Part shown: in pieces, positions 19,626 through 32,936 of the stretch
Position numbering within the stretch: position 1 is the first letter of the stretch
Layout of the letters: every line of letters starts with the position of its first letter
NCBI RefSeq assembly: GCF_020405225.1
Contig: NZ_CP084472.1
Location: forward strand, 186,001-250,000
Reading direction: 5' to 3'
Source: Natrinema sp. DC36
GTDB lineage: Archaea; Halobacteriota; Halobacteria; Halobacteriales; Natrialbaceae
Length of the DNA: 64,000 bases
Translations under genes and position numbers: made by a program
The notes under the pieces: model-generated
Database searches by the model: none
Told to the model about the DNA's origin: nothing
The model's input: the letters and a program-made list of their open reading frames with translations, nothing else

Positions 19626-20171
19626 ATGAACACGCAAAAGACCACTCGACAGGCAGCGGACACGGTCGAATCGAACGCGCTTCGACTCGACACGGAAAAG
19701 GCCGAGCAGATTATCGACGCGCTCAACACGGATCTGGCGGACGCGTACGTCCTCTATCATCAACTCCACAAGCACCACTGGAACGTGGAGGGTGCGGAGT
19801 TCCTCGACGTCCACGTCTTCCTCCAGGAGGTCTACGAGGACGTCGAAGCCGCGGCCGACGAACTCGCAGAGCGACTCCAGGCGCTCGGCGGCGTTCCACA
19901 TGCGAGCATGACGACGCTCGTGGAGAACGCGACGGTCGAGCCCGAAGACGAAGACGTCTACGATATCCGAACCTCACTGGCCAACGACCTCGACATGATG
20001 GGAGACATGATCGAGAGCTACCGCCAGCACATCGAACTTGCGGAGGGGCTCGGCGACTACGCGACGGGGCAGATACTTCGCGAGCAACTCGAGACGATCG
20101 AAGAACACACCCACCACATCGAACACTACCTCGAAGACGACACCCTCGTCCTCGAATCAGCGACGAAGTAA
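19626..20171 (+). CDS. dpsA: DNA-protecting ferritin-like protein DpsA
   Basis: A 181-residue Dps family protein very like Halobacterium DpsA. 'YVLYHQLHKHHWNVEGAEF' holds the ferroxidase-site histidines at the dimer interface, 'ADELAERLQALGGVPHAS' the matching acidic residues, and 'HHIEHYLEDDTLV' the C-terminus. It forms 12-mer shells that oxidise and store Fe(II) and protect DNA. A TATA-like 'gttataag' lies about 31 bases upstream. It neighbours an iron island with DtxR-type operators, although no such palindrome is seen before dpsA itself. Confidence 0.93.
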   Translation: MNTQKTTRQAADTVESNALRLDTEKAEQIIDALNTDLADAYVLYHQLHKHHWNVEGAEFLDVHVFLQEVYEDVEAAADELAERLQALGGVPHASMTTLVENATVEPEDEDVYDIRTSLANDLDMMGDMIESYRQHIELAEGLGDYATGQILREQLETIEEHTHHIEHYLEDDTLVLESATK

Positions 20172-20348
20172 CTCGAGCGGTCGACCGCAACCGAGTTCCG
20201 AGTGGTCTCTCGTGGGTTCGCTCCGAGAGTTTCAGTTCGATTTCGATCCCGATCGATGCCGAAGAATATCTCGATAACTACTACTTGACGGGGGCGCTGA
20301 ACGCAATCGTAATAGAGCTCGAGGGGAAAGCAGCCGCTGGAAGACGAG

Positions 20349-20516
20349 CTATTGAGTCGATTCGACGACGCGGTCGCTCGAAATCCATCCCTCAGTGTTC
20401 CCGGATTCGATGAAGACGACTCTGTCAGGACCGCTTTCGCAGACCGATATCTCGGGTCCGTGGGCCGCATCCGGTTCGGAGTCACGTTCGGCATCCGATT
20501 GCGTACCGGTAGTCAT
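20349..20516 (-). CDS. Small protein behind an iron-type operator
   Basis: A 55-residue protein read directly from the sequence: 'MTTGTQSDAERDSEPD', a middle 'ISVCESGPDRVVFIESGN', then 'EGWISSDRVVE'. The V-V-F-I-E...G-W-I-x-S pattern resembles a common class of haloarchaeal mini-proteins, a single small beta fold. A perfect palindrome TTTAGGC-AG-GCCTAAA lies 8 bases before its ATG and a T-rich box about 28 bases before it, so it should be a leaderless transcript controlled by the DtxR-type regulator next door. Function unknown. Confidence 0.6.
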   Translation of the reverse strand: MTTGTQSDAERDSEPDAAHGPEISVCESGPDRVVFIESGNTEGWISSDRVVESTQ

Positions 20517-20524
20517 TGACTCTG

Positions 20525-20540
20525 TTTAGGCAGGCCTAAA
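20525..20540. promoter_or_regulatory. DtxR/SirR-type operator before the 55-residue gene
   Basis: Perfect 16-bp palindrome TTTAGGCAGGCCTAAA (7-2-7). It lies between the T-rich promoter box ('tttttatttt' on the minus strand) and the ATG of the 55-residue gene, where a bound repressor would block transcription. It shares its half-site with four other copies in the iron island (28356, 28392, 31874, 31909). Confidence 0.75.
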
Positions 20541-20600: not shown

Positions 20601-21017
20601 TCACCGGGGGTCCGACTGTGTGGAAGAGAGCGACCTTACCGCGTCTTCAGACGGGTCGTCACCATCAGCGAGAAGCGTCGATGCGAGGCGATCGACGACT
20701 GTCGGACTAACCGCTCCCGCCAGTTCCATCGCCTCGCTCTCGTGCTCGTCGAGTCCGAGCACGTCGTGAAAGAACCGCGAAAGGGTATCGTAGGTCTCGT
20801 ACAGTTCTTCGGCGGTCGCTCGCCCCTCGGCCGTGAGCGTCGCTCCGTCGTACGGTTCGTACGTCAGGTAGCCGTCGGATTCGAGCCGCTGAAGCATCTC
20901 CGTCGTCGCCGACGGCGAGCGATCGACCGCGTCGGCCACGTGCCCGGGTGAAATCGGTGGCGAGCCCCGCTGTTCCGCGAGATAGAGAACGAGAAGGTAG
21001 TGGGAGACCCCAGTCAT
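20601..21017 (-). CDS. DtxR/SirR family metal-dependent regulator
   Basis: A 138-residue regulator. The N-terminal winged helix 'HYLLVLYLAEQRGSPPIS' and 'VADAVDRSPSATTEMLQRLESDGYLTYEP' is the DtxR DNA-binding domain; 'LYETYDTLSRFFHDVLGLDEHESEAMELAGAVS' is the helical dimerisation and metal-binding domain with the usual H/E/E ligands. The C-terminal FeoA/SH3 domain is absent, as in other short haloarchaeal members. DtxR-type regulators repress iron uptake when Fe(II) is plentiful; the palindromes in this island are the obvious targets, which is inference. Confidence 0.88.
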   Translation of the reverse strand: MTGVSHYLLVLYLAEQRGSPPISPGHVADAVDRSPSATTEMLQRLESDGYLTYEPYDGATLTAEGRATAEELYETYDTLSRFFHDVLGLDEHESEAMELAGAVSPTVVDRLASTLLADGDDPSEDAVRSLSSTQSDPR

Positions 21018-21165: not shown

Positions 21166-22092
21166 TCACGACCCTCCGTTCTCGCGTTCGGTTTCGATTT
21201 CGCGCGCCGCTTCGACGATCAGGTCGTCGTCGATGTGCTCGAGCAGTCGTTCGTGTCCGCGTTCGATCCGCCGTTCGATATCGTCGTCGGCGAGATACGT
21301 CTCGAGCCTCCGGTCGATTTCCCGCTCGCGTATCTCAGTGAGGCGATTCGCCTCGAGGTCGTGATCATCGGGCACTCGGTCGTCGAAATACTCCCGCCAC
21401 CGATCCCGGTCGCTCCACTCACCGTCCAGTTCCGCCTCTCGTCGCATCCAGTCGTAGTAGTTCGCCACGGCGTCGGGGTACCCCGCTTCCCGTCGAACGT
21501 CCTCGACGACGGTGATCCCGACCCGCGTGCCGCGTCCGGCGGCCATGCTCGCCTGATAGCCGGTCTCGCCGTACGGCGACGCGACGAACAGGTCCTCGAC
21601 CGGCGTCGTCCCGTCGCTCTCGGCGTACCCCTTGTCGAAGTGCTCGTGTTCCTCGCCGTCGTGTTCGTGCGTCTCGAACATCGCCGTCTCGTCGTCGAGA
21701 CCGCGCATGTACTCGCCGTCGTAGCGCGTGGCCGCGATCACTCGACGAGCGGTAACCGGTTCCCCGTCCTGCAGGCTAATGACGAATCCCTCGCCGTCGT
21801 CGATGCGCTCGAGCGACTCGACGAGATCGGGAGCGATCTCACAGCCCGCCTCCTCGGCGTGATCGTGCAGCAGCCCGTACAGCGTCTCGATGTCGATCCC
21901 CGCGGGGAAGCCGAGGTAGTTCTCGAGGTAGGCACATCGCTGAATCGAGGAGCGTCCGCGATCGAAGATGACCGTGTCCAGGCCGTACCGGGCCGTGAAG
22001 ACGCCTGCTGCACAACCCGCGGGGCCGCCGCCAACGACGACGACATCGTGATCAAACGTCGTCTCCGCTCGATCAGTATCGATTACACTCAT
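21166..22092 (-). CDS. FAD-dependent oxidoreductase, thioredoxin-reductase-like
   Basis: A 308-residue flavoprotein. 'DVVVVGGGPAGCAAGVFTARYGLDTVIFD' begins a dinucleotide-binding fold with G-x-G-x-x-G; 'RCAYLENYLGFPAGI' occupies the place of the active-site region but without a C-x-x-C pair; 'EDLFVASPYGETGYQASMAAG' is the C-terminal FAD motif region. The last 90 residues are a charged helical extension not found in thioredoxin reductases. Its place beside the iron ABC operon suggests a ferric-siderophore reductase or a siderophore-tailoring oxidoreductase (inference). Confidence 0.75.
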   Translation of the reverse strand: MSVIDTDRAETTFDHDVVVVGGGPAGCAAGVFTARYGLDTVIFDRGRSSIQRCAYLENYLGFPAGIDIETLYGLLHDHAEEAGCEIAPDLVESLERIDDGEGFVISLQDGEPVTARRVIAATRYDGEYMRGLDDETAMFETHEHDGEEHEHFDKGYAESDGTTPVEDLFVASPYGETGYQASMAAGRGTRVGITVVEDVRREAGYPDAVANYYDWMRREAELDGEWSDRDRWREYFDDRVPDDHDLEANRLTEIREREIDRRLETYLADDDIERRIERGHERLLEHIDDDLIVEAAREIETERENGGS

Positions 22093-22274
22093 TGGTTGAA
22101 CCTGCTTTCTGCAATCTGCTGGTGGTCGAAGCGCTGTTCGTCTTCGCGGATGTCGGGTGCGTCGTCACCGTCTCCTGTAAGACCCGTATGGCACACACGA
22201 GTGGCGCTACTCGAGACGGAGTTACCGAGTCTTCCGTACGTCGTATCAGTAGTGGCGTGAATCATGGGTCGTCG

Positions 22275-22448
22275 TTATCGTCTGACCGTCACTGGCTGGT
22301 CAGCGGCGATGAACGGCTCACCGTCCCCATCGGCGAACGCCAAGCCGCCACACTCGCTGCGACGGACTCGCCACGACGGCAGGTCGGGGATGTCGTAGTC
22401 CGACGGGTCACGGAAGGCACCCGCAATCGCCCACTCTCGAGCGCGCAT
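22275..22448 (-). CDS. 57-residue ORF directly after the fifth binding protein
   Basis: The ATG at 22448 follows the stop codon of the upstream binding-protein gene with no base between. The 57-residue product has 'MRAREWAIAGAFRDPSDYD'-like sequence, then 'WRVRRSECGGLAF' and ends 'FIAADQPVTVRR'. It has one cysteine and no membrane segment. GC-rich third positions and perfect coupling favour a real gene, but I recognise no family; it could also be the leftover of a longer gene. Confidence 0.5.
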   Translation of the reverse strand: MRAREWAIAGAFRDPSDYDIPDLPSWRVRRSECGGLAFADGDGEPFIAADQPVTVRR

Positions 22449-23633
22449 TCAGTGATTCCCCGCGATGATGTCAGCGACCGCCTGCCGGTTGAACAACTGT
22501 TCGTCCTCCGGAAGTTCCGGGTACGGGCCGTCGGTGTAGGTCGGCCACTCACCGAATATCTCGGGATAGAGCTGTTTCGCGGTCATCTCGAGCTGGAACA
22601 GGTTCAGAATCGGCCCCTGGTAGCGCGCCCCCTGCGCGTAGACGCGATCGTTTTGGACCGCGGCGAGCTCCTGCCCGACGGCGTGATTCCGCAGCGCCGA
22701 TCGAATTCCGGGCATATCGGTTTGGGGGTGCATCCCGCCCAGTGAGAAGAGAACGTCGGGATCGGCCTCGAGCATCCCCTCCATATCGATCGTGTCGCCG
22801 GAGGAAATGTCGTCTCCGAGGGCACCGATCGGATCGAGCGGGCGCACGTGCTCGATCAAAAATCCTGGCGTATCCAGCGTGTAGACGTACATGCTCTCGA
22901 TGTCGCTCATCCCCGCTATGACCGCGGTCGGGCGCTCCTCTTCTGGGGGGAGATCCGCCTCGATCGTTGCCAGCAGGTCCGCGTGAATCGTCTCGAGCGC
23001 GTCGTAGCGCGACTCTTCGCGGAACACCGCTGCGACTTTCTCGAACAGCTCCCAGAGAGTGTAATACTCGTAGCGGTCGGCCCACTCGGCCGGCGGTTCG
23101 CCGTGTCTGTCACTAAACGTGTTCCCGAACCAAGGTGAGACGGTATCCCGGATTTCCTCGACATCTGTCGTGTTCCAGCTATCGAGGGCGTTTACGCTCG
23201 CCGGGTCGGCGAGGTGGATATCGCTGTCGAGACTATAGAGCTTTTCTTTGCCCGGATCCCAGGAGGAATACAATCCTGACCAGTCCAACGTGACGCCCGG
23301 CAATCGTTCGGTAAACTGGTTCCAGAGCTGGTCGTAGTAGTCGGGTGCGTGCATCGCGTTGACGTCGTTCCCGCGTCCGAGGGCGAACGCCATGCCTGCG
23401 TGGTGAGTCAGCCGCGTGAAGATGCTCTCCGGCGGCGAGTCGAACGAAACCTCGCCCATCGGGGCCATCGTCACCGAATAGGAGCCGTCGCCGGACTCCG
23501 GTTCCGAGTCCTCGGTTTGTCCAGCCAGGTCCGAACAGCCCGCGAGGGCGGTCCCGGCCGCGAGCGCGCCGCCGTACTTCAGCGCGTCTCTGCGCGTCGG
23601 TCCCTCGGTCGTGGTGTCGTCGGTATCACTCAT
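22449..23633 (-). CDS. Siderophore-type ABC substrate-binding lipoprotein 5 (type B)
   Basis: A 394-residue exported lipoprotein. Tat motif 'PTRRDALKYGGALAAG' is followed by the lipobox 'LAGC', so it should be folded in the cytoplasm, exported by Tat and lipid-anchored outside. The mature part is FecB/BtuF-like: 'FTRLTHHAGMAFALGRGN', 'ADPDVLFSLGGMHP' and 'QNDRVYAQGARYQGPILNLFQ'. It is type B, sharing the 'HLADPA...WFGNTFSD...YYTLWELFEKVAAVF' layout with copies 2 and 4. Its ATG abuts the stop of copy 4. Last binding protein of the series. Confidence 0.87.
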   Translation of the reverse strand: MSDTDDTTTEGPTRRDALKYGGALAAGTALAGCSDLAGQTEDSEPESGDGSYSVTMAPMGEVSFDSPPESIFTRLTHHAGMAFALGRGNDVNAMHAPDYYDQLWNQFTERLPGVTLDWSGLYSSWDPGKEKLYSLDSDIHLADPASVNALDSWNTTDVEEIRDTVSPWFGNTFSDRHGEPPAEWADRYEYYTLWELFEKVAAVFREESRYDALETIHADLLATIEADLPPEEERPTAVIAGMSDIESMYVYTLDTPGFLIEHVRPLDPIGALGDDISSGDTIDMEGMLEADPDVLFSLGGMHPQTDMPGIRSALRNHAVGQELAAVQNDRVYAQGARYQGPILNLFQLEMTAKQLYPEIFGEWPTYTDGPYPELPEDEQLFNRQAVADIIAGNH

Positions 23634-24821
23634 TCAGTTGTTACCGTTGATGATGTCTGCGACTTCCTGGCGGTCGAATAGCTGTTCGTCCTCGGGAATC
23701 TCGGGGTACGGGCCGTCGGTGTAGGTCGGCCACTCTCCGAAGGTGTCGGGATAGAGTTCCTTCGCCGTCATCTCGGTCTGGAAGAGGTTCATTATCGGCC
23801 CCTGGTTGCGCCCGCCCTGGGTGTGGATGCGGTCGTTCTCGACTGCCGTCACCGATTCAGTGACCGGATCGTTCTGGAACCGTTCTCGAGTCTTCGTTAC
23901 GTGCCGAGACTCTGACATCCCAGCGAGACAGAGGACAACATCGGGATCAGCTTCGACGAGGGCCTCGTAGTCAACTGTCGATTCGGTCTGGACATCCGCA
24001 AAAACGTCGTGTGCACCAAGCGGGCGAGTGTGGGCGGTCAGGAAGCCAGGGCCGTTCAATGCATACGTATACATACTTTCCTCACCCTGGATGAGGATGA
24101 TCATCGCCACCGACGGCCGCTCGTCTTCCGACGGCAGATCCGCCTCGATCGTCGTGAGCATCTCACTGTGGACGGCTTTGAGCGCCTCGTAGCGCTCCTC
24201 CGCTTGGAACACCTTTGCGACCTTCTCGAAGATCTCCCAGAGCGTGTAATACTCGTAGTCGTCGGCCCACTCCGCGCCCGGTTCCTTGTTCGCGTTGCTG
24301 AGCGTGTTGCCGAACCACGGGGCGACCTGCTCGCCGATTTCCGCGGTGTCCTCGCGCGTCCAGCTCGGCATGTTCGTCATGTACGCGGGGTCCGCGAGGT
24401 GGAGGTCACTGTCGAGTTCGTAGAGGAACTCCCTGTCGGGATCCCACGTTCCGGGAAGATCAGCCCAGTCGACGGAGACGCCCGGGAGCCGCTCGAGGAA
24501 CTTGTTCCACATCGTGTCGTTGTACGCCGGATTGTACATCATCGAGGAGACTGCGTCGCCGTGGCCGGCCGCGAGCGCCATGTCCGCGTGATGGGGGAGA
24601 ATCGTGAAGACGTTCTCCGGTGGCCGCTCGAACTCGACGGTTCCGCTCGGAGCCATCGTCACCGAGTACGTCCCGTCCGACTCGTCGGACGAACCCGGTT
24701 CGTTCTGGCCGGCGAGGTCCGAACAGCCCGCCAGCAGCCCGCCACCGACGACCGTTCCGCCGTACTTCATGTAGTCTCGCCGCGTCGGTGCTCCAGTCGT
24801 TCTGTCGGTAGTGTCGTTCAT
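23634..24821 (-). CDS. Siderophore-type ABC substrate-binding lipoprotein 4 (type B)
   Basis: A 395-residue Tat lipoprotein: 'PTRRDYMKYGGTVVGG' then 'LLAGCSD'. The mature domain has 'FTILPHHADMALAAGHGD', 'DLHLADPAYM', 'APWFGNTLSN', 'YYTLWEIFEKVAKVFQ' and 'QTEMTAKELYPDTFGEW'. These blocks match copies 2 and 5 (type B) much better than copies 1 and 3. The ATG overlaps the stop of copy 3 by four bases (ATGA). No metal or heme ligand motif can be named; a ferric siderophore is the likely ligand from context. Confidence 0.87.
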   Translation of the reverse strand: MNDTTDRTTGAPTRRDYMKYGGTVVGGGLLAGCSDLAGQNEPGSSDESDGTYSVTMAPSGTVEFERPPENVFTILPHHADMALAAGHGDAVSSMMYNPAYNDTMWNKFLERLPGVSVDWADLPGTWDPDREFLYELDSDLHLADPAYMTNMPSWTREDTAEIGEQVAPWFGNTLSNANKEPGAEWADDYEYYTLWEIFEKVAKVFQAEERYEALKAVHSEMLTTIEADLPSEDERPSVAMIILIQGEESMYTYALNGPGFLTAHTRPLGAHDVFADVQTESTVDYEALVEADPDVVLCLAGMSESRHVTKTRERFQNDPVTESVTAVENDRIHTQGGRNQGPIMNLFQTEMTAKELYPDTFGEWPTYTDGPYPEIPEDEQLFDRQEVADIINGNN

Positions 24822-25987
24822 CGTTCAAACTCTCCGTTGATGATGTCCGCGACCTCCTGCCGGTCGAATAGTTGCTCGTCGCCTGTCACGTCTCCGAACG
24901 TATCGGGGAACAGCTGCTTCGCCGCTCGCTCGGTCAGGAAGAGATTGTGAATCGGTCCCTGATTGAGGTAGCCGCCGCGATACACTCGCCCGTTCTCGAC
25001 GGCGGTGAGCTCGCTCCCGACGGGATGATTCCGCATGTAGTCGAGAACGACGTCTCGGAACTCCGTGGCGGATTTTCGTTCGTGGCCGCGGACGAAAATT
25101 ACGTCGGGGTCGATCTCGAGGAGGTTCTCGTAGTCGAGTTCGCCGCGGTTCGTGGTGCTGAGATTGTCGATGTCCGTCCCCGCCAGCGCGTCGTGGACGC
25201 CGAGGTCGCGCCACTGTTTCTTGCTCGTCCCCGCGTCGTCGAGTCGATACGGCGAGAACGTCTTCGGTTCCTCGGTCCCCTCGAAGGTGAGGAAGACGTC
25301 CGGTCGGTCATCGCTCGGCGGGAGTCGCTCCTGGATCGACGCGATGAACTCGGTGTGGAGTTCGCTGAACGCCTCGTAGCGTTCCCCCTGCTGGAACACC
25401 TCGGCCATCTTTTCGAAGGCCTCGTACAGCGTGTAGTAGCGATAGTCGTGCCACTCGTCGGATCGTCGGAAGATCAGGTTTCCGACGAACGGCGCGACCG
25501 TCGACGCGATTTCCTCGACATCCCTCTCGTTCCAGTCGAACCAGTTGATGAGCATCTGGGGGTCGTACAGGTGGACGTCGCTCTCGAGTTCGTAGAACTC
25601 CTCTCTGGTTCGAACTTCGGGATACTGCTCAAGGATGTCTTGATCGACGGTCACGCCGGGCAGTTCGTCGTAAACGTCGGTGTAGTAACGATCTGCGCCA
25701 CCGACGCCCGTCAATCCATCGGCCTGCCCCAGTGCGACGGCCATATCGGCGTAGCCGCCGTCGTACGCGGCCCACCGCTCTGGTACCTGGTCGAACGAGA
25801 CCGTCCCCATCGGTTCCATCGACACGGAGTACGATTCGGCCCCGGTCGTCTCGGTCTCCGCATCCCCCTCCTGTCCGACGAGATCCGAACAGCCAGCGAG
25901 GGTAGCGCCGGTTGCGAGCGCCCCGCCGTATTTGAGCGTGTCTCTGCGTGTCGGTGTCGCTGTCGTGTTTGTATCCTTGGGATTCAT
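24818..25987 (-). CDS. Siderophore-type ABC substrate-binding lipoprotein 3 (type A)
   Basis: A 389-residue Tat lipoprotein: 'PTRRDTLKYGGALATG' and lipobox 'LAGC'. Type A marks shared with copy 1 are 'VPERWAAYDGGYADMAVALGQ', 'REEFYELESDVHLYDP', 'HDYRYYTLYEAFEKMAEVFQ' and 'YLNQGPIHNLFLTERAAKQL'. It is slightly shorter at the C-terminus than type B. The ATG follows directly on the stop of copy 2 (no gap) and its own stop overlaps the start of copy 4. Ligand presumably a ferric complex different from type B (inference). Confidence 0.87.
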   Translation of the reverse strand: MNPKDTNTTATPTRRDTLKYGGALATGATLAGCSDLVGQEGDAETETTGAESYSVSMEPMGTVSFDQVPERWAAYDGGYADMAVALGQADGLTGVGGADRYYTDVYDELPGVTVDQDILEQYPEVRTREEFYELESDVHLYDPQMLINWFDWNERDVEEIASTVAPFVGNLIFRRSDEWHDYRYYTLYEAFEKMAEVFQQGERYEAFSELHTEFIASIQERLPPSDDRPDVFLTFEGTEEPKTFSPYRLDDAGTSKKQWRDLGVHDALAGTDIDNLSTTNRGELDYENLLEIDPDVIFVRGHERKSATEFRDVVLDYMRNHPVGSELTAVENGRVYRGGYLNQGPIHNLFLTERAAKQLFPDTFGDVTGDEQLFDRQEVADIINGEFER

Positions 25988-27175
25988 TTAGATCTCTCCG
26001 TCGATGATGGCTGCAACTCGCTGCCTGTCGAACAACTGCTCCGACTCGGGGAACTCCGGATACGCCCCACCGTCGTATCTCGGCCACTCGCCGAACGCAT
26101 CCGGATAGAGTTCCTTCGCGCCCATCTCGAGTTGGAAGAGGTGAGCGATCGGTCCGCCGTACCGAATCGCCATGGGGTAGACGCGGCCGTTTTCGACGGC
26201 GGGGATCGCTCGAGCCACGGGATCGTTTTCGAGGTAGTCTTTGATCTCGACGAACTCTCTGGTCGGCCCCATCGCGTGAGTGTTGAGAATCACGTCGGGA
26301 TCGACTTCGACGAGCGCCTCGAGGGCGATCTCGCTGTACGCGTCCGCGTCGGCGAACGCGTCTTCTGCACCGAGCGGGCGGAGATGCGCCTGCTCGTAGC
26401 CGGGGTCGTTGAGTGCGAACGGCCAGATACTCAGTTCCCCGTCCGAGAGCGCCGTCTGTATTCGGGCGACCCGCGGCCGGTCCGTCTCCGGCGGGAGATT
26501 CGCTTCGATCTCGGCGAGGAGATTCGTACGGACCTCCGTGAGCTCTTGATACCGCTGTTCTTCCCGAAAGACCGCTGCGACCTTCTCGAAGATCTCCCAC
26601 AGCGTGTAGTATTCGTAGTCGTCGGCCCACGCAGCCGGGGGCTCTCTGCGGGAATCGCTGTAGGCGTTGCCGAACCAGGGGGCGACGTTCTCGCCGATCT
26701 CCTCGATATCGTCGCGGTCCAAACTGTCCATCACCGTCATGTACGCCGGATCGGCCAGGTGGAGATCGCTGTTTAGCTCGTAGAGTTGCTCCTTGTCGAT
26801 GTTCCAGGAGTTCGGGAGGTCGGCCCAGTCGGTGGACACGCCCGCGAGGCGCTCGAGGAAGAGTTCGTAGAGCGCCCCGAAGTTCTCCGGACTGTACATC
26901 GTGTTGATCGACTCACCGTGTCCGAGCGCGAGCGCCATATCGGCGTGGTGGACGAGGTTCGCGAAGACGTTCTCCGGCGGCCGCTCGAGCGTGATCTCGC
27001 CGGCGGGGGCCATCGTCACCGAGTAGGACCCTTCGTTTGTCTCCGCCGGCGATTCGTTCTGGCCAACGAAGTCCGAACACCCTGCCAGCAGTCCACCGCC
27101 GATGACTGTGCCTCCGTACTTCACGTAGTCTCTGCGCGTCGGTGCATCTCTCGTATCGACATTCTGGCCAGTCAT
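25988..27175 (-). CDS. Siderophore-type ABC substrate-binding lipoprotein 2 (type B)
   Basis: A 395-residue Tat lipoprotein: 'PTRRDYVKYGGTVIGG' then 'LLAGCSD'. The ATG at 27175 was chosen because it overlaps the stop of copy 1 as ATGA and puts the Tat motif at residue 10; the longer frame to 27265 has no signal. Type B mature blocks: 'FANLVHHADMALALGHGE', 'ADLPNSWNIDKEQLYEL', 'WFGNAYSD' and 'YYTLWEIFEKVAAVFREE'. Differences from copies 4 and 5 are spread along the chain, so the duplication is not recent. Confidence 0.87.
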   Translation of the reverse strand: MTGQNVDTRDAPTRRDYVKYGGTVIGGGLLAGCSDFVGQNESPAETNEGSYSVTMAPAGEITLERPPENVFANLVHHADMALALGHGESINTMYSPENFGALYELFLERLAGVSTDWADLPNSWNIDKEQLYELNSDLHLADPAYMTVMDSLDRDDIEEIGENVAPWFGNAYSDSRREPPAAWADDYEYYTLWEIFEKVAAVFREEQRYQELTEVRTNLLAEIEANLPPETDRPRVARIQTALSDGELSIWPFALNDPGYEQAHLRPLGAEDAFADADAYSEIALEALVEVDPDVILNTHAMGPTREFVEIKDYLENDPVARAIPAVENGRVYPMAIRYGGPIAHLFQLEMGAKELYPDAFGEWPRYDGGAYPEFPESEQLFDRQRVAAIIDGEI

Positions 27176-28353
27176 CGTTCGAAGTCCCCGTTGATGACGT
27201 CCGCGACCCGCTGGTGATCGAACAGATGCGCCTCCTCGTCCAGCAGCGTTTCGACGCCGTTCCACTCGCCGAACCGGTCCGGATAGAACTGTTTCGCCGC
27301 TGCCTCCGTCTGGAGGAGATTGATCACTGGGCCCTGATAGGACGTGCCGCCCCGATACAGGCGGTCTTCCGTCACTGCAGTGAGCTGTTGGCCGAAAGAA
27401 CTGGAGCGAAGCCGTTCCATCCGCTCTTCGAACTCGGCCGCGGAGACGTGTGAAAAGCCGTAGGTGAACACCAGAACGTCCGGATCGACCGCGAGTAATT
27501 GTTCGTAGTCCCAGTTCGCGTAACTCCCGTCTATATGCGACGCGAACCCGTCGTTGATCCCGAGGTCGCGGTACTGTTTCTTCCCGTTGCCGGCGCCGAC
27601 GGGGTACGCGTGGAACGATCCGGTTTCGAAATCGGAGAAAGTGGAGAGTAGACCGATTTCCGGCCGCTCGTCTCGTGCGGGAAGGTCCGACTGCAGTTCG
27701 TCGATGAACTCGTCATGGACGTCCTTGATCGCCTCGTAGCGTTCTCGCTCCTGAAACACCGCGGCGATCTTTTCGAACGCCTCGTACAGCGAATAGTACT
27801 CGTACTCGTGCCAGTCCTCGTCGTGCCGGCGGATGTAGTTACCGACGAACGGTCCGAGTCCCGCTTCGAGTTCGTCGAAGTCCCCCTTCGAAAAGCCGTC
27901 GTGCTTCAGGCTAACGAAGTTCGGGTCGAGCAGGTGAACGTCGCAATCGAGCTCGTAGAACACCTCCTTGTCGAAACTGCTCGCGTTGTAGAGTTGCCGT
28001 ACACCGTCGAATGACACGTCGACGCCCGGAAGGGTATCGTACAGCCCGTCCGGCCAGGTATCCCGGTAGACGAGCGCCTCGAGCCCATCGAGTTGGCCGA
28101 GCGCGATCCCCATGTCCCCGTACGTACTGAAGTACCCCATCCACGTCTCGGGAACCGATTCGAACTCGACCTCGCCCGCCGGTGCCATCGTTACCGAGTA
28201 CGATCTATCGTCCGTCCCCGCCGTCGATCCCGAGTCGTTCTGGCCTGCGAAGTCCGAACACCCTGCCAACAGTCCCCCGCCGACGGCCGTACCGCCGTAC
28301 GTTACGAACTCTCGCCGCGTCGATTCCCCACGTCTTGTTTCGTCCCTCTCCAT
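27172..28353 (-). CDS. Siderophore-type ABC substrate-binding lipoprotein 1 (type A)
   Basis: A 393-residue Tat lipoprotein, first of five in a row: 'STRREFVTYGGTAVGG' then 'LLAGCSD'. Type A blocks: 'VPETWMGYFSTYGDMGIALGQ', 'KEVFYELDCDVHLLDP', 'HEYEYYSLYEAFEKIAAVFQ' and 'GTSYQGPVINLLQTEAAAKQF'. The ATG at 28353 lies 3 bases from a perfect 18-bp DtxR-type palindrome and about 26 bases from 'gtttatt', so the transcript is leaderless and iron-controlled. The long upstream frame to 28872 only shadows the ABC gene. It leads a fully coupled run of genes down to 22275. Confidence 0.88.
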   Translation of the reverse strand: MERDETRRGESTRREFVTYGGTAVGGGLLAGCSDFAGQNDSGSTAGTDDRSYSVTMAPAGEVEFESVPETWMGYFSTYGDMGIALGQLDGLEALVYRDTWPDGLYDTLPGVDVSFDGVRQLYNASSFDKEVFYELDCDVHLLDPNFVSLKHDGFSKGDFDELEAGLGPFVGNYIRRHDEDWHEYEYYSLYEAFEKIAAVFQERERYEAIKDVHDEFIDELQSDLPARDERPEIGLLSTFSDFETGSFHAYPVGAGNGKKQYRDLGINDGFASHIDGSYANWDYEQLLAVDPDVLVFTYGFSHVSAAEFEERMERLRSSSFGQQLTAVTEDRLYRGGTSYQGPVINLLQTEAAAKQFYPDRFGEWNGVETLLDEEAHLFDHQRVADVINGDFER

Positions 28354-28355
28354 GG

Positions 28356-28373
28356 TTTTAGGCCCGCCTAAAA
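28356..28373. promoter_or_regulatory. DtxR-type operator, proximal, before binding protein 1
   Basis: Perfect 18-bp palindrome TTTTAGGCCCGCCTAAAA (8-2-8). It covers the space between the TATA-like 'gtttatt' (about 28378-28384, minus strand) and the ATG, that is, the predicted transcription start. Strongest copy together with 28392-28409. Confidence 0.82.
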
Positions 28374-28391
28374 CATAATAAACGCTCCGGT

Positions 28392-28409
28392 TTTTAGGCG
28401 GGCCTAAAA
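28392..28409. promoter_or_regulatory. DtxR-type operator, distal, upstream of binding protein 1
   Basis: Perfect 18-bp palindrome TTTTAGGCGGGCCTAAAA, centred 36 bp from the proximal copy, so both would face similar sides of the helix and flank the TATA region. It ends directly at the stop codon of the ABC gene. Confidence 0.82.
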
Positions 28410-30323
28410 TCAGCGTTCGCCGTCGGTCGGCCCGTGGGTGATGGTATCGACGAACGCCTCGGGCAGGTCGTCTATCTCGCCGGTTTGGACGCCCCACAGA
28501 TCGGCGTACAGGCCGTCCGTCGCGAGCAACTCCTCGTGGGTGCCGCGCTCGACGATCCGTCCGTCCTTCAGCGCGAGGATGGTGTCGGCGTCCTTGATCG
28601 TCGACAGTCTGTGGGCGATGGCCACCGTCGTCCGCTCGGTGGTCAGCTCCTCGAGCGAGCGCTGGATGAGGTACTCCGTCTCCGTGTCGACGCTGGCGGT
28701 CGCCTCGTCCAGCAGGATGATCGCCGGATCCTGAAGGATCGCCCGGGCCAGTGCGATCCGCTGGCGCTGGCCGCCCGACAGTTTGACGCCGCGCTCGCCG
28801 ACCCGCGTCTGATATCCCTCCGTTAGCTCCCGGATGAACTCGTGGGCTTCCGCCGCGTCGGCCGCCTCCCATACCTCGTCGTCGCTCGCGTCGAAGTGGC
28901 CGTAGCGGATGTTCTCGGCCACCGTCCCGTCGAACAGGAACGTGTCCTGACTCACGTACCCGATGGCCTCCCGCAGGTCCGAAACGCGGACGTCACGCAC
29001 GTCGTGGCCGTCGACGCGGATCGTACCGTCGTCGACGTCGTACAACCGTAACAGAAGTTTCGCGACCGTCGACTTGCCCGCGCCGGTCGCACCGACGAGT
29101 GCGATCGTCTCGCCCGGTTCGACATCGAAGTCGACCCCGTCGAGGACCGGTACCCCGTCCTCGTAGCCGAATCGAACGTCGTCGTACACGAGTCGACCCG
29201 CGACGTCCTCGAGTGGGACCGCATTCGGCGCGTCCCGAATCCCGACCGGGACGTCCAACAACCCGCAGATACGCTTGGCCGACGCCTTCGCGTTTTCGTA
29301 CCAGTCGACGATGCTCGAAAGCTGGGCCATCGGCCCCGTCAGGCGCTGGGTCAACAGCATGAACACGACGAAATCGCCGGTCGTGAGTTCGCCGGAAAAG
29401 AACAGCGACGGTCCGGAGAACACCCACAACCCGCCGACGACGAACGTCGCCAGCAGCGCCGCGCCGGTGATCAACTCCATCCCGGGCCGATAGAAGTAAC
29501 TCAGCTTCAACACGTCCATCTGCGCGTCGAACACCGATCTCGAGACGCCCCGGACGCGGCCGTTCTCGTACTCCTCGGTGGAGGCAGTCTTCACGAGTTC
29601 GATCCCGCTGAGGCCGTTCTCGATGCGCGTGTTCAGATCGCCGATCGTCGAGCGGACGGCGGCGTAGCGGGGCTCGATCACCCTGACGAACCACCAGGTA
29701 AACGCGACCAGCAGCGGCACGGCCCCGAGGGTGAGCAGTGCGAGTTGCCAGTTCGTATAGAGCAACGCGGCAGTGATCCCGACGACGATCACACCGATCC
29801 GCACGCTGTCTCCCAGCGCGTTATCGAAGAACACCTCCAGGTTCGAGATGTCGTTGTTCAGAATCGACATGACTTCGCCCGTCTCCTTGTTGTCGAAGAA
29901 GGTCATATCGAGGCGCTGCATCTTCTCGTAGGCGTCCGTTCGGATCGTGTACATCACCCCGTGCGCGAAGAAGTTCATCGCCACGCCCCGGACCCACTGG
30001 AGGAGCGCGCCGCCGGCGAGCGCGACTCCGATGACGGTCGCGGAGAGCCAGAACTGCGCGGTCGGCTCGGTCGGCAGCCACGCGCCGGGCACGAGCGGCA
30101 GCGCGTACGTTCCCTCGCCGGTGAACACCGCATCGATGGTCGTCCCGAGAACGAGCGGCGTCACGAGGATCGACCCGTACGCGAGCGCGCTGGCGACCAG
30201 TCCGAGTGCGAGCCACCGCCCCTCCCCGAGACCGTAGGTGCGGAACAAGCGAATCAGCGGCTTCGAGACTCGTTCACGGTAGGTGTCGAGTTCCGTCTCG
30301 AGGGTCGCCTGATCGCTCACCAC
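28410..30323 (-). CDS. ABC transporter, fused permease-ATPase (exporter type)
   Basis: A 637-residue half-transporter: residues 1-350 are a six-span type I exporter membrane domain ('RLDMTFFDNKETGEVMSILN' is the conserved intracellular loop), residues 380-630 the ATPase with Walker A 'GATGAGKST', Q-loop 'YVSQDTFLFDGTV', signature 'LSGGQRQRIALARAI', Walker B 'IILLDEATASVDTETE' and switch 'IAHRLSTI'. It should act as a homodimer. The start is GTG 30323 or 30320. It sits in an iron operon between a FecCD permease and binding proteins: it could export a siderophore, or act like mycobacterial IrtAB, exporter-fold proteins that import ferric siderophores. Direction cannot be read from sequence. Confidence 0.88.
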   Translation of the reverse strand: MVSDQATLETELDTYRERVSKPLIRLFRTYGLGEGRWLALGLVASALAYGSILVTPLVLGTTIDAVFTGEGTYALPLVPGAWLPTEPTAQFWLSATVIGVALAGGALLQWVRGVAMNFFAHGVMYTIRTDAYEKMQRLDMTFFDNKETGEVMSILNNDISNLEVFFDNALGDSVRIGVIVVGITAALLYTNWQLALLTLGAVPLLVAFTWWFVRVIEPRYAAVRSTIGDLNTRIENGLSGIELVKTASTEEYENGRVRGVSRSVFDAQMDVLKLSYFYRPGMELITGAALLATFVVGGLWVFSGPSLFFSGELTTGDFVVFMLLTQRLTGPMAQLSSIVDWYENAKASAKRICGLLDVPVGIRDAPNAVPLEDVAGRLVYDDVRFGYEDGVPVLDGVDFDVEPGETIALVGATGAGKSTVAKLLLRLYDVDDGTIRVDGHDVRDVRVSDLREAIGYVSQDTFLFDGTVAENIRYGHFDASDDEVWEAADAAEAHEFIRELTEGYQTRVGERGVKLSGGQRQRIALARAILQDPAIILLDEATASVDTETEYLIQRSLEELTTERTTVAIAHRLSTIKDADTILALKDGRIVERGTHEELLATDGLYADLWGVQTGEIDDLPEAFVDTITHGPTDGER

Positions 30324-30547
30324 GCGGCCTCCGCGCCGGCGTTTCGGCCGCCAGTCTCGCCGTCGGTTCCTCGAGTCGCCTCGCCGCCATCCGAATCCGT
30401 GCCGAGTTCGTCCGGACGAGAGCCCTGTAACTCGAGGTTCGAACCGGAAAGCGGACTTACTGCCGACTCGTCACTAGCGTCCGACGACTCGGCAGCTGCG
30501 CCTCTCGGTTCGCTCGTTCGTCGCCCGTCCGTACCGGCGCGTCCCAT
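30317..30547 (-). CDS. 76-residue low-complexity linker ORF
   Basis: The ATG at 30547 follows the stop of the FecCD gene with no gap, and the stop overlaps the GTG start of the ABC gene. The product is rich in G/S/E/D/T ('DELGTDSDGGEATRGTDGE') with no fold or membrane segment. Its exact fit into the coupled operon favours translation, perhaps only to carry ribosomes from the permease to the ABC gene. It could be an artefact of GC-rich spacer DNA. Confidence 0.35.
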   Translation of the reverse strand: MGRAGTDGRRTSEPRGAAAESSDASDESAVSPLSGSNLELQGSRPDELGTDSDGGEATRGTDGETGGRNAGAEAAW

Positions 30548-31678
30548 TCAGATCTCACCCATGTTCTCCTGCTTTCGCATCAGATAGAGGAAGTACGGGC
30601 CGCCGATGAGTCCGGTGACGATGCCGACGGGAATCTGCGTGGGACTCAACGCGAGTCGCGCGCCCACGTCGGCGGCGACCATCAGCGCCGGACCGACGAA
30701 CAGGCAGCCGATGACCAGTTTCTTCGAGTCGCTCCCGACGAGGTTTCGAACCATGTGCGGAACGATGAGGCCGACGAACCCGACGATGCCGGCGACGGCG
30801 ATGCTCGCCGCCGCCGCGAGGACCGCGACCCCCGAGAGCGCGAATCTGACCTTCTCGATCGACATCCCGAGCGACTTCGCCGTCTGCTCGCCCAGCAAGA
30901 GGACGTTCATCTGGCGCGAGCCGGCGATAGAGAGCAGAACGACCACGATCGTCCACGGAAGCACGAGTCGGACCTGTTCCCAGTCGGTCCCGGTCAGCGA
31001 TCCGGTGGTCCAGGCGATGGCCGACTGGACGACGCCGATATCGTCCGCGAAGAAAAACAGTGCGGTCTGTAACGAGCCGAAGACCGTTCCGACGATCACG
31101 CCGGCGAGCACTAATCGGACCGGCGAGGTACCGTTCTTCCAGGCGATCACGTAGACGATGAGAAACGCACCGGCCCCGCCGAAGGCCGCGATCAGCGGAA
31201 GGAACGCCGTCAAACTTCCGAACACGACGAGGGTCAGCAGAATCATGAGTCCCGCCCCGGAGGAGACGCCGAGGATGAACGGGCTCGCGAGTTCGTTTCG
31301 GGTCACCGCCTGAAAGATGGCCCCCGAGACGGCGAGATTCATCCCGACGAGGACCGCGACGAACACCCGCGGAAGGCGGATGTTCCAGACGATGAGGCTT
31401 TCGGTACTCATCTCGGGCATCGCCTCGCCGAGCAAGAACGCGTCCCAGGCCTGCGGATTGAACACCACGTTCGGGTTGAAGAGTGCGAGCCACGCCTCCG
31501 CGTGCGTCATCGAGTAGGCACCGTAGCTCACCTGTATCAGTCCGCCGACGAACACGATGGCGAGGCTGCCGAGTACTACCGTGACGAGTTTCGGATCGAG
31601 GAGCCACCCGAACCGCGTCTCGTTTCGTCGCGATGTCGTCGGCTCTCCTGTCGCGACGCTCGACTTCTTCCCGCTCAT
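30548..31678 (-). CDS. FecCD-family iron-siderophore permease
   Basis: A 376-residue membrane permease of the BtuC/FecCD family with about ten spanning segments. Family blocks: 'WNIRLPRVFVAVLVGMNLAVSGAIFQAVTRNELASPFILGVSSGA', here best seen as 'RLPRVFVAVLVG' and 'NELASPFILGVSSGAG', the ATPase-coupling loop 'LGMSIEKVR...AAASIAVAGIVGFVGLIVPH', and the end 'IPVGIVTGLIGGPYFLYLM'. Such permeases pair with a FecE-type ATPase, which is absent from this locus. The start at 31678 overlaps the stop of the 64-residue ORF upstream (ATGA). Confidence 0.92.
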   Translation of the reverse strand: MSGKKSSVATGEPTTSRRNETRFGWLLDPKLVTVVLGSLAIVFVGGLIQVSYGAYSMTHAEAWLALFNPNVVFNPQAWDAFLLGEAMPEMSTESLIVWNIRLPRVFVAVLVGMNLAVSGAIFQAVTRNELASPFILGVSSGAGLMILLTLVVFGSLTAFLPLIAAFGGAGAFLIVYVIAWKNGTSPVRLVLAGVIVGTVFGSLQTALFFFADDIGVVQSAIAWTTGSLTGTDWEQVRLVLPWTIVVVLLSIAGSRQMNVLLLGEQTAKSLGMSIEKVRFALSGVAVLAAAASIAVAGIVGFVGLIVPHMVRNLVGSDSKKLVIGCLFVGPALMVAADVGARLALSPTQIPVGIVTGLIGGPYFLYLMRKQENMGEI

Positions 31679-31873: not shown

Positions 31874-31891
31874 TTTTAGGCCTACCTAAAA
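31874..31891. promoter_or_regulatory. DtxR-type operator, proximal, permease operon
   Basis: TTTTAGGCCTACCTAAAA: 8-2-8 palindrome with one mismatch pair. It lies between the predicted TATA ('ggttttatg' on the minus strand) and the first ATG of the operon (31869), the same layout as at 28356-28373. Confidence 0.75.
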
Positions 31892-31908
31892 CATAAAACC
31901 GTTCCGAT

Positions 31909-31926
31909 TTTTAGGCCAACCTAATT
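31909..31926. promoter_or_regulatory. DtxR-type operator, distal, permease operon
   Basis: TTTTAGGCCAACCTAATT, an imperfect copy centred 35 bp from the proximal site. The paired arrangement and spacing match the pair before the binding-protein operon (36 bp), which suggests cooperative binding of two regulator dimers. Confidence 0.65.
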
Positions 31927-31937
31927 GGCGCGCCGCG

Positions 31938-32936
31938 TCAGCGGGGGCCACCGCATTGCGGACAGATCGGTGGACCCGGTTCGGGGAGCGAGAGCCCACA
32001 GTAGGGACACTCGTCGCCGTCTGGAGCGGTGATCTCATCGACGACCTCGTCGGTTCGGTCACGGAGAGCCGTTATCGTCCCGATTTCCTCGGGAACGGGA
32101 TCTCCCGGCCCGTCGTCCCCGTCGATCGCATAGCGGACTCGATCGACGAGGAACTCGACCGAATCGTCGTCCGCGGCCGAACGCACGTCGGGTATCGTCA
32201 CGTCCGAATCCGACCGGGCCAGCAGGCCCAGCGCCTCGGTCGCCCGTCCCCGGACGTAGGGACTCTCGTCGTCCAACCGATCGCACAGTGCAGCGGCGCT
32301 CTCGGACAACGCGTCCGGATACGCACAGCCGACCGCGACCAGCGCGGTACAGAGGTGATATCGAACGAGTTCGTTCGAATCGGTGAGATGGCTGGCCAGA
32401 TCCGAAACGTGATGTCGGAGCCGCTCCTGGTCGCCCAGCGCCACGTACTCGAGCGCTTTCGCCAATTTCTCTCTCACCTCGGGCTCGTCGAACGACAGTC
32501 CGATTCGCAGGTCCGCCATTACCTCGGGTGACGCGACCGCTTCCGGGTGGTCCCGCGCGACGTAGCCGAGCGCCTCCGCCGAACGAGCGCGCACGTAGTA
32601 GAACTCGTCGTCGTCGGCCAACCGGTCAGCGAGGGGTGAGACGACCGACTCGACCGCGTCCGGTTCGGCCTCGGCGACGGCGACGAACAGCTTTGCGGTC
32701 GTCAGCCGAATCGAACGCTCCTCGTCGGTGAGAAATAGCGCCAGCGTCGTCAGTACGGGCTCGAGCGCAGCCGGTTGCCGTTCGGCGAACTGTCGGAGGG
32801 TGCGAAGCGTCGTTTTCCGCGCTCCCGCCTCACGCTCCGTGAGTCGTTCGGCCCAGATCACGAGCCGCTCTCGCGGTTCCTCCTCGAAGAGCACCTCGAG
32901 TTGATCGATCGACGGCGGCTGTCTCGAATCGTCCAT
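31938..32936 (-). CDS. HEAT-repeat protein with C-terminal zinc ribbon
   Basis: A 332-residue protein. Residues 20-260 consist of about six HEAT-like helical repeats, for example 'YYVRARSAEALGYVARDHPEAV' and 'SPYVRGRATEALGLLARSD'. Residues about 307-330 form a zinc ribbon, 'ECPYCGLSLPEPG' with 'CPQCGG'. HEAT repeats serve as protein-binding scaffolds. No membrane segment. It is divergent from the lrp gene and its stop lies 11 bases from the distal iron operator, so it belongs to the flanking chromosome rather than to the iron operon. Confidence 0.82.
   Translation of the reverse strand: MDDSRQPPSIDQLEVLFEEEPRERLVIWAERLTEREAGARKTTLRTLRQFAERQPAALEPVLTTLALFLTDEERSIRLTTAKLFVAVAEAEPDAVESVVSPLADRLADDDEFYYVRARSAEALGYVARDHPEAVASPEVMADLRIGLSFDEPEVREKLAKALEYVALGDQERLRHHVSDLASHLTDSNELVRYHLCTALVAVGCAYPDALSESAAALCDRLDDESPYVRGRATEALGLLARSDSDVTIPDVRSAADDDSVEFLVDRVRYAIDGDDGPGDPVPEEIGTITALRDRTDEVVDEITAPDGDECPYCGLSLPEPGPPICPQCGGPR

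Follow-up and report, generated by a model that had tools for sequence, protein, structure and literature searches.

In the window (the whole 64-kb stretch of Natrinema sp. DC36 DNA analysed here), five consecutive genes for substrate-binding proteins (SBPs) are found together with a FecCD permease gene, several recurrent neighbours and predicted iron-type operators. The five receptor genes are as follows.

27172..28353, minus strand: SBP1, group A1, Tat lipoprotein, Peripla_BP_2 (reading frame, Pfam and tree)
25988..27175, minus strand: SBP2, group B2 (reading frame, Pfam and tree)
24818..25987, minus strand: SBP3, group A3 (reading frame, Pfam and tree; AlphaFold2 pLDDT 95.6)
23634..24821, minus strand: SBP4, group B4 (reading frame, Pfam and tree; AlphaFold2 pLDDT 96.6)
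22449..23633, minus strand: SBP5, group B5 (reading frame, Pfam and tree)

All five frames are complete and encode proteins of 389-395 residues, each carrying a twin-arginine signal and a LAGC lipobox and each scoring above the Pfam curated cut-off of 27.5 bits for PF01497 (Peripla_BP_2). The initial annotation, which had described five consecutive Tat lipoproteins here, is thus borne out, as are the 4-base overlaps or zero gaps that it gave between copies: overlaps of 4 bases were seen at copies 1/2 and 3/4 and zero gaps at 2/3 and 4/5. Two narrower SBP models were not matched, since the array SBPs scored 18-41 bits against TIGR03868 (F420-0 ABC transporter SBP; NCBIfam cut-off 392) and at most 20.6 bits against TIGR03659 (heme SBP IsdE; NCBIfam cut-off 298.65). 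When each copy was compared with its own orthologues, dN/dS was 0.13-0.24, and each array copy is kept by purifying selection.

Predicted operators and promoter

Operators were judged against TTAGGNNNNCCTAA, the 14-base IdeR/DtxR consensus (PMC8464063), rather than against one from archaeal DtxR regulons. The following sites were found in the window.

28358..28407, no strand: array promoter/operator, with two TTAGGNNNNCCTAA sites (28358-28371 and 28394-28407) around a TATA-like TTTATTATG
31876..31924, no strand: operator pair of the permease unit, TTAGGNNNNCCTAA sites 31876-31889 and 31911-31924
20526-20539: single DtxR-type operator, preceding a putative ORF around 20126-20513

The permease and SBP1 are each preceded by a pair of these sites, and the fifth is the single one at 20526; against the five found, 0.01 would be expected in the 64-kb window, and all lie within the iron locus. 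Genome-wide there are only 20 sites (1 for a reversed control). Such sites precede every further SBP of the array family elsewhere in the genome, namely both SBPs of the pair that accompanies a second permease and a lone SBP at 3754049-3755185, and they are also found before the second permease itself and upstream of both IucA/IucC genes of the siderophore-synthesis cluster. Because the array shares this operator with the IucA/IucC genes and the other SBPs, it is tied to siderophore metabolism. Judging from the predicted operators, the array and the permease would be under the control of a DtxR-family iron regulator.

The TATA-like TTTATTATG lies between the two operators, about 25 bases upstream of the SBP1 ATG. 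This arrangement directly before the start codon suggests that a separate, leaderless transcript is probably made from the array. The locus had initially been described as one coupled operon; the five SBP genes are indeed coupled together, but the array begins at a promoter with an operator pair of its own, distinct from the pair in front of the permease.

There is no support for the notion that owners of the array do not make a siderophore themselves, given the two IucA/IucC genes in the window's own genome. Equally, SBP number was not higher in genomes without IucA/IucC (25 same-genus genomes compared).

Structural models and receptor subtypes

As had been suggested as a check, the structures of single proteins were predicted. 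The AlphaFold2 models of A3 (pLDDT 95.6) and B4 (pLDDT 96.6) are confident and have a two-lobed, siderophore-SBP-like fold. The A3 model matched HtsA (Z 20.8), FecB (20.0) and VatD (19.6), and Foldseek matched the B4 model to the same families; the top structural matches of both were mostly siderophore SBPs (HtsA, YfiY with schizokinen, CeuE, VatD, FecB and PiaA). Sequence matches of the array SBPs to siderophore SBPs in the PDB were weak. An SBP fold of this type is also found in heme, B12 and metal binders, so the fold alone names no ligand.

One glutamate in each lobe (two in total) is conserved in 98-100% of A and B proteins. In the BtuF/FhuD class, a glutamate in each lobe docks on the permease, and by this analogy the conserved residues would fit docking on a common permease. 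Many other conserved positions differ between A and B (F/W, Y/W, K/A, G/Q), and an insert and a C-terminal extension are present in B only. These residue differences would agree with different ligands.

Two trees were built, one of 226 proteins and one maximum-likelihood tree of 51 rows. The subtypes proposed at the outset, A (copies 1 and 3) and B (copies 2, 4 and 5), form a firm split in the homologue tree (support 100/99 in the 51-row tree). In both trees A1, A3, B2, B4 and B5 are separate groups, each with members from other genera. On this phylogenetic evidence, the five SBP groups predate the genera that now carry them.

We consider it likely that these genes supply the cell with a panel of receptors for ferric siderophores, repressed by iron. 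Alternatively, the five proteins might bind the same ligand, so that the cell gains more receptor rather than wider specificity, and the single promoter and the docking residues held in common would suit such a dosage effect. This appears improbable, however, because the copies are only 39-59% identical in pairwise comparison, every group is old and separately maintained, and A and B are distinct at many conserved positions.

Origin of the array

A second alternative to the panel of receptors had been raised in the initial annotation, namely that A and B act as a pair on one ligand and that an A-B pair was duplicated to give the order A-B-A-B(-B). The firm A/B split agrees with it, A1 and B2 are also neighbours in Halostagnicola (L009), A3 and B5 are often adjacent, and a single clade of groups B2 and B4 was not rejected in the 51-row tree (p 0.11). 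The duplication nevertheless fails on the A side, where a single clade of groups A1 and A3 was rejected in the same tree (p 0.014), as was, separately, a sister relationship of the window's copies 1 and 3 alone (p 7e-8), and it also fails on the five old groups and on an array order that varies among genomes. Orders found elsewhere are A3-A1-B4-B5-Ax (L014), A3-B5 (L013, L049-L051), A3-B4-B5 (L098), B5-A3-Ax (L054, L055, L082) and A3-B4-B2-B5 (L012). Four genomes have a B5-like protein as their single family SBP and three have a single A-side SBP, some of these genomes being drafts; obligate A-B receptor pairs are therefore unlikely. Since the groups are separate and old, the order is variable and genomes with a single family SBP exist, the alternation of A and B is best seen as incidental, and we regard paired A-B receptors as very unlikely.

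Recent tandem duplication in place was also rejected, because every copy resembles proteins from other genomes more closely than it does the adjacent array members. Family SBPs occur in 186 of 242 genomes of a class-wide sample, and among relatives the family array ranges from 1 to at least 11 SBPs. In Natrialba aegyptia (L069:2678-15490) there are at least 11 tandem family SBP frames, the last of them truncated where the contig ends. Scars are present in several relatives, with the start of A1 fused to A3 in L049 and N-terminal remnants of A1 in L013 and L098, which indicates that the shorter arrays lost genes. Insertion of an exporter-A1-B2 cassette was considered and dropped, given scars of the exporter-type gene (L014, L049, L104) alongside the A1 N-terminal remnants (L013, L098, L049) in relatives; together these scars suggest an earlier, longer layout (permease-FecE-exporter-array) that was cut back by deletions. 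The array probably arose through old duplications, followed by shuffling and deletion within longer arrays.

Permease, ATPase and neighbouring genes

The remaining features of the locus are listed below.

31938..32936, minus strand: HEAT-repeat protein with a C-terminal zinc ribbon, recurrent SBP neighbour
30548..31678, minus strand: FecCD permease with an AxxxG coupling helix (PF01032, E 5e-90)
30317..30547, minus strand: short ORF occupying the usual position of the FecE ATPase gene, with a weak match to the first ~52 FecE residues (E 5e-4)
28410..30323, minus strand: MsbA/ABCB-like half transporter (TM and ATPase) between permease and array
22275..22448, minus strand: conserved 57-codon ORF directly 3' of SBP5
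22089..22265, minus strand: possible 3' remnant of a sixth SBP, similar over the last ~17 codons (weak)
21166..22092, minus strand: FAD protein, N-terminal half thioredoxin-reductase-like, recurrent neighbour
20601-21017: small ORF where relatives have a metal-dependent regulator

Apart from the short ORF at 30317-30547, no FecE/FhuC ATPase gene was found beside the window permease, a lack that the initial annotation had passed over. From its weak match, this ORF is probably a remnant of the FecE 5' end, and clearer FecE and exporter fragments are found at the same place in relatives. The genome holds eight SBPs of the array family, two permeases of this class and one FecE-class ATPase. The second permease is 64-67% identical to that of the window, and both have the AxxxG coupling helix, a feature discussed in connection with FhuC (PMC10147376); for a third FecCD protein, identity falls to 41%. 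The sole well-matching FecE-class ATPase adjoins the second permease and is 55-57% identical to the intact same-locus FecE of Natrinema versiforme JCM 10478. In Staphylococcus aureus, FhuC is one ATPase serving several iron permeases (PMC10147376), and by analogy the two permeases and all array SBPs may use this one distant FecE-class ATPase in trans.

A decaying locus, whose importer is dead after loss of the ATPase gene and of one or more SBPs and whose array is disappearing, is hardly credible. FecE loss and further deletion scars are indeed present here and in relatives, but the permease and all five SBPs are intact, with dN/dS of 0.13-0.24 for the SBPs. In same-genus relatives, most of them likewise without an adjacent FecE, permease identity is 89-98%; the operators are intact as well, and an ATPase in trans works for other iron permeases (PMC10147376).

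The half transporter is also retained in Halostagnicola, Natrialba and Halohasta, and only scars of it are left in several relatives; siderophore export is one possibility for its role. The HEAT-repeat/zinc-ribbon protein is found beside family SBPs across haloarchaea. The thioredoxin reductase match of the FAD protein is limited to the N-terminal half and does not extend over the full length; the protein is a candidate ferric-siderophore reductase. An intact SBP lies at the place corresponding to 22089-22265 in two relatives (L014, L053). The 57-codon ORF (MRAREWAIAG...) is conserved in Natrinema/Haloterrigena, Halostagnicola, Natronomonas, Halorubrum, Haloprofundus and Haloglomus loci. Starting the region at 22275, as was originally done, took in this real conserved frame, which would encode a small protein, so far undescribed, that belongs to the iron locus. 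Haloferax mediterranei E6P09_RS17315 was rejected as a relative of it, being an SBP N-terminal stub adjoining an SBP.

Discussion

In the panel that we propose, the five lipoproteins would be exported by the Tat route and then retained on the cell surface, where each SBP presumably captures a ferric siderophore distinct from those of the others, whether made by the cell itself or by other organisms. The SBPs would pass the ferric siderophore to common FecCD permeases, the adjacent one and perhaps also the paralogue with which it shares 64-67% identity, powered in trans by the single remaining FecE-class ATPase of the genome, and when iron is plentiful a DtxR/IdeR-type regulator would shut off the array. 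We infer that all five SBPs feed the same permease and share the ATPase, and likewise what they bind. A panel of receptors had been suggested from the start. That idea agrees with the presence of several receptors of the siderophore class for each permease, with their division into two subtypes, and with the iron-type operators and common docking glutamates; its derivation from an A-B duplication has been given up.

More tentatively, and with rather less than an even chance of being right, haloarchaea may hold a shuffling library of siderophore receptors for the cell surface in tandem arrays, served by interchangeable permeases and one ATPase. Old receptor groups would then be lost, regained and reordered through recombination inside the array; if so, uptake specificity would evolve through receptor swaps only. 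To our knowledge, hardly any work has addressed the specificity of siderophore-uptake receptors in archaea. The value of this locus lies in five well-separated natural receptors behind one promoter, with clear A/B signatures and an unusually readable evolutionary record. Useful comparisons are provided by sister genomes with smaller subsets and by species with one B-type or A-side receptor only. Together, these features would allow the ligand range and the sharing of permeases and of the ATPase to be tested directly in cultured haloarchaea.

Among known systems, Haloferax volcanii has 11 FhuD paralogues and 2 permeases, of which 5 FhuD paralogues and 1 permease go up in low iron (PMC11349517). 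Its FhuCGD system and the window locus are alike in having many SBP paralogues and few FecCD permeases, a likeness that does not imply gene-by-gene orthology. FhuCGD is under DtxR-type/FerR control and responds to iron starvation; the window locus has DtxR-type operators and the same domain families. In contrast to Hfx. volcanii FhuCGD, the window locus has its five SBP genes in one tandem array with its own promoter, and unlike haloarchaeal FhuCGD its permease has no adjacent ATPase gene. During denitrification in Hfx. mediterranei, FecE, FecCD, an FAD oxidoreductase and several SBPs drop together with siderophore genes (PMC11218638). One of the co-repressed genes, E6P09_17310, corresponds by tag number to RS17310, which belongs to the array family by sequence.

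Loci that encode an iron permease but no ATPase of their own are also seen in S. aureus Hts/Sir/Isd, which are energised by FhuC (PMC10147376); tandem receptor genes are not described for them, and ATPase sharing in the window is inferred. Further parallels are the annotated arrays of a Halostagnicola larsenii plasmid, Natrinema versiforme, Halobacterium hubeiense and Natrialba aegyptia, which have the same SBP groups and operators as the window and the same HEAT, FecCD, FAD and 57-codon neighbours. They differ from it in groups, in order and in how many copies stand in tandem (from 2 to at least 11), and some retain FecE and/or an exporter-type gene. The window locus is of middling size among such receptor arrays, which are widespread in haloarchaea.
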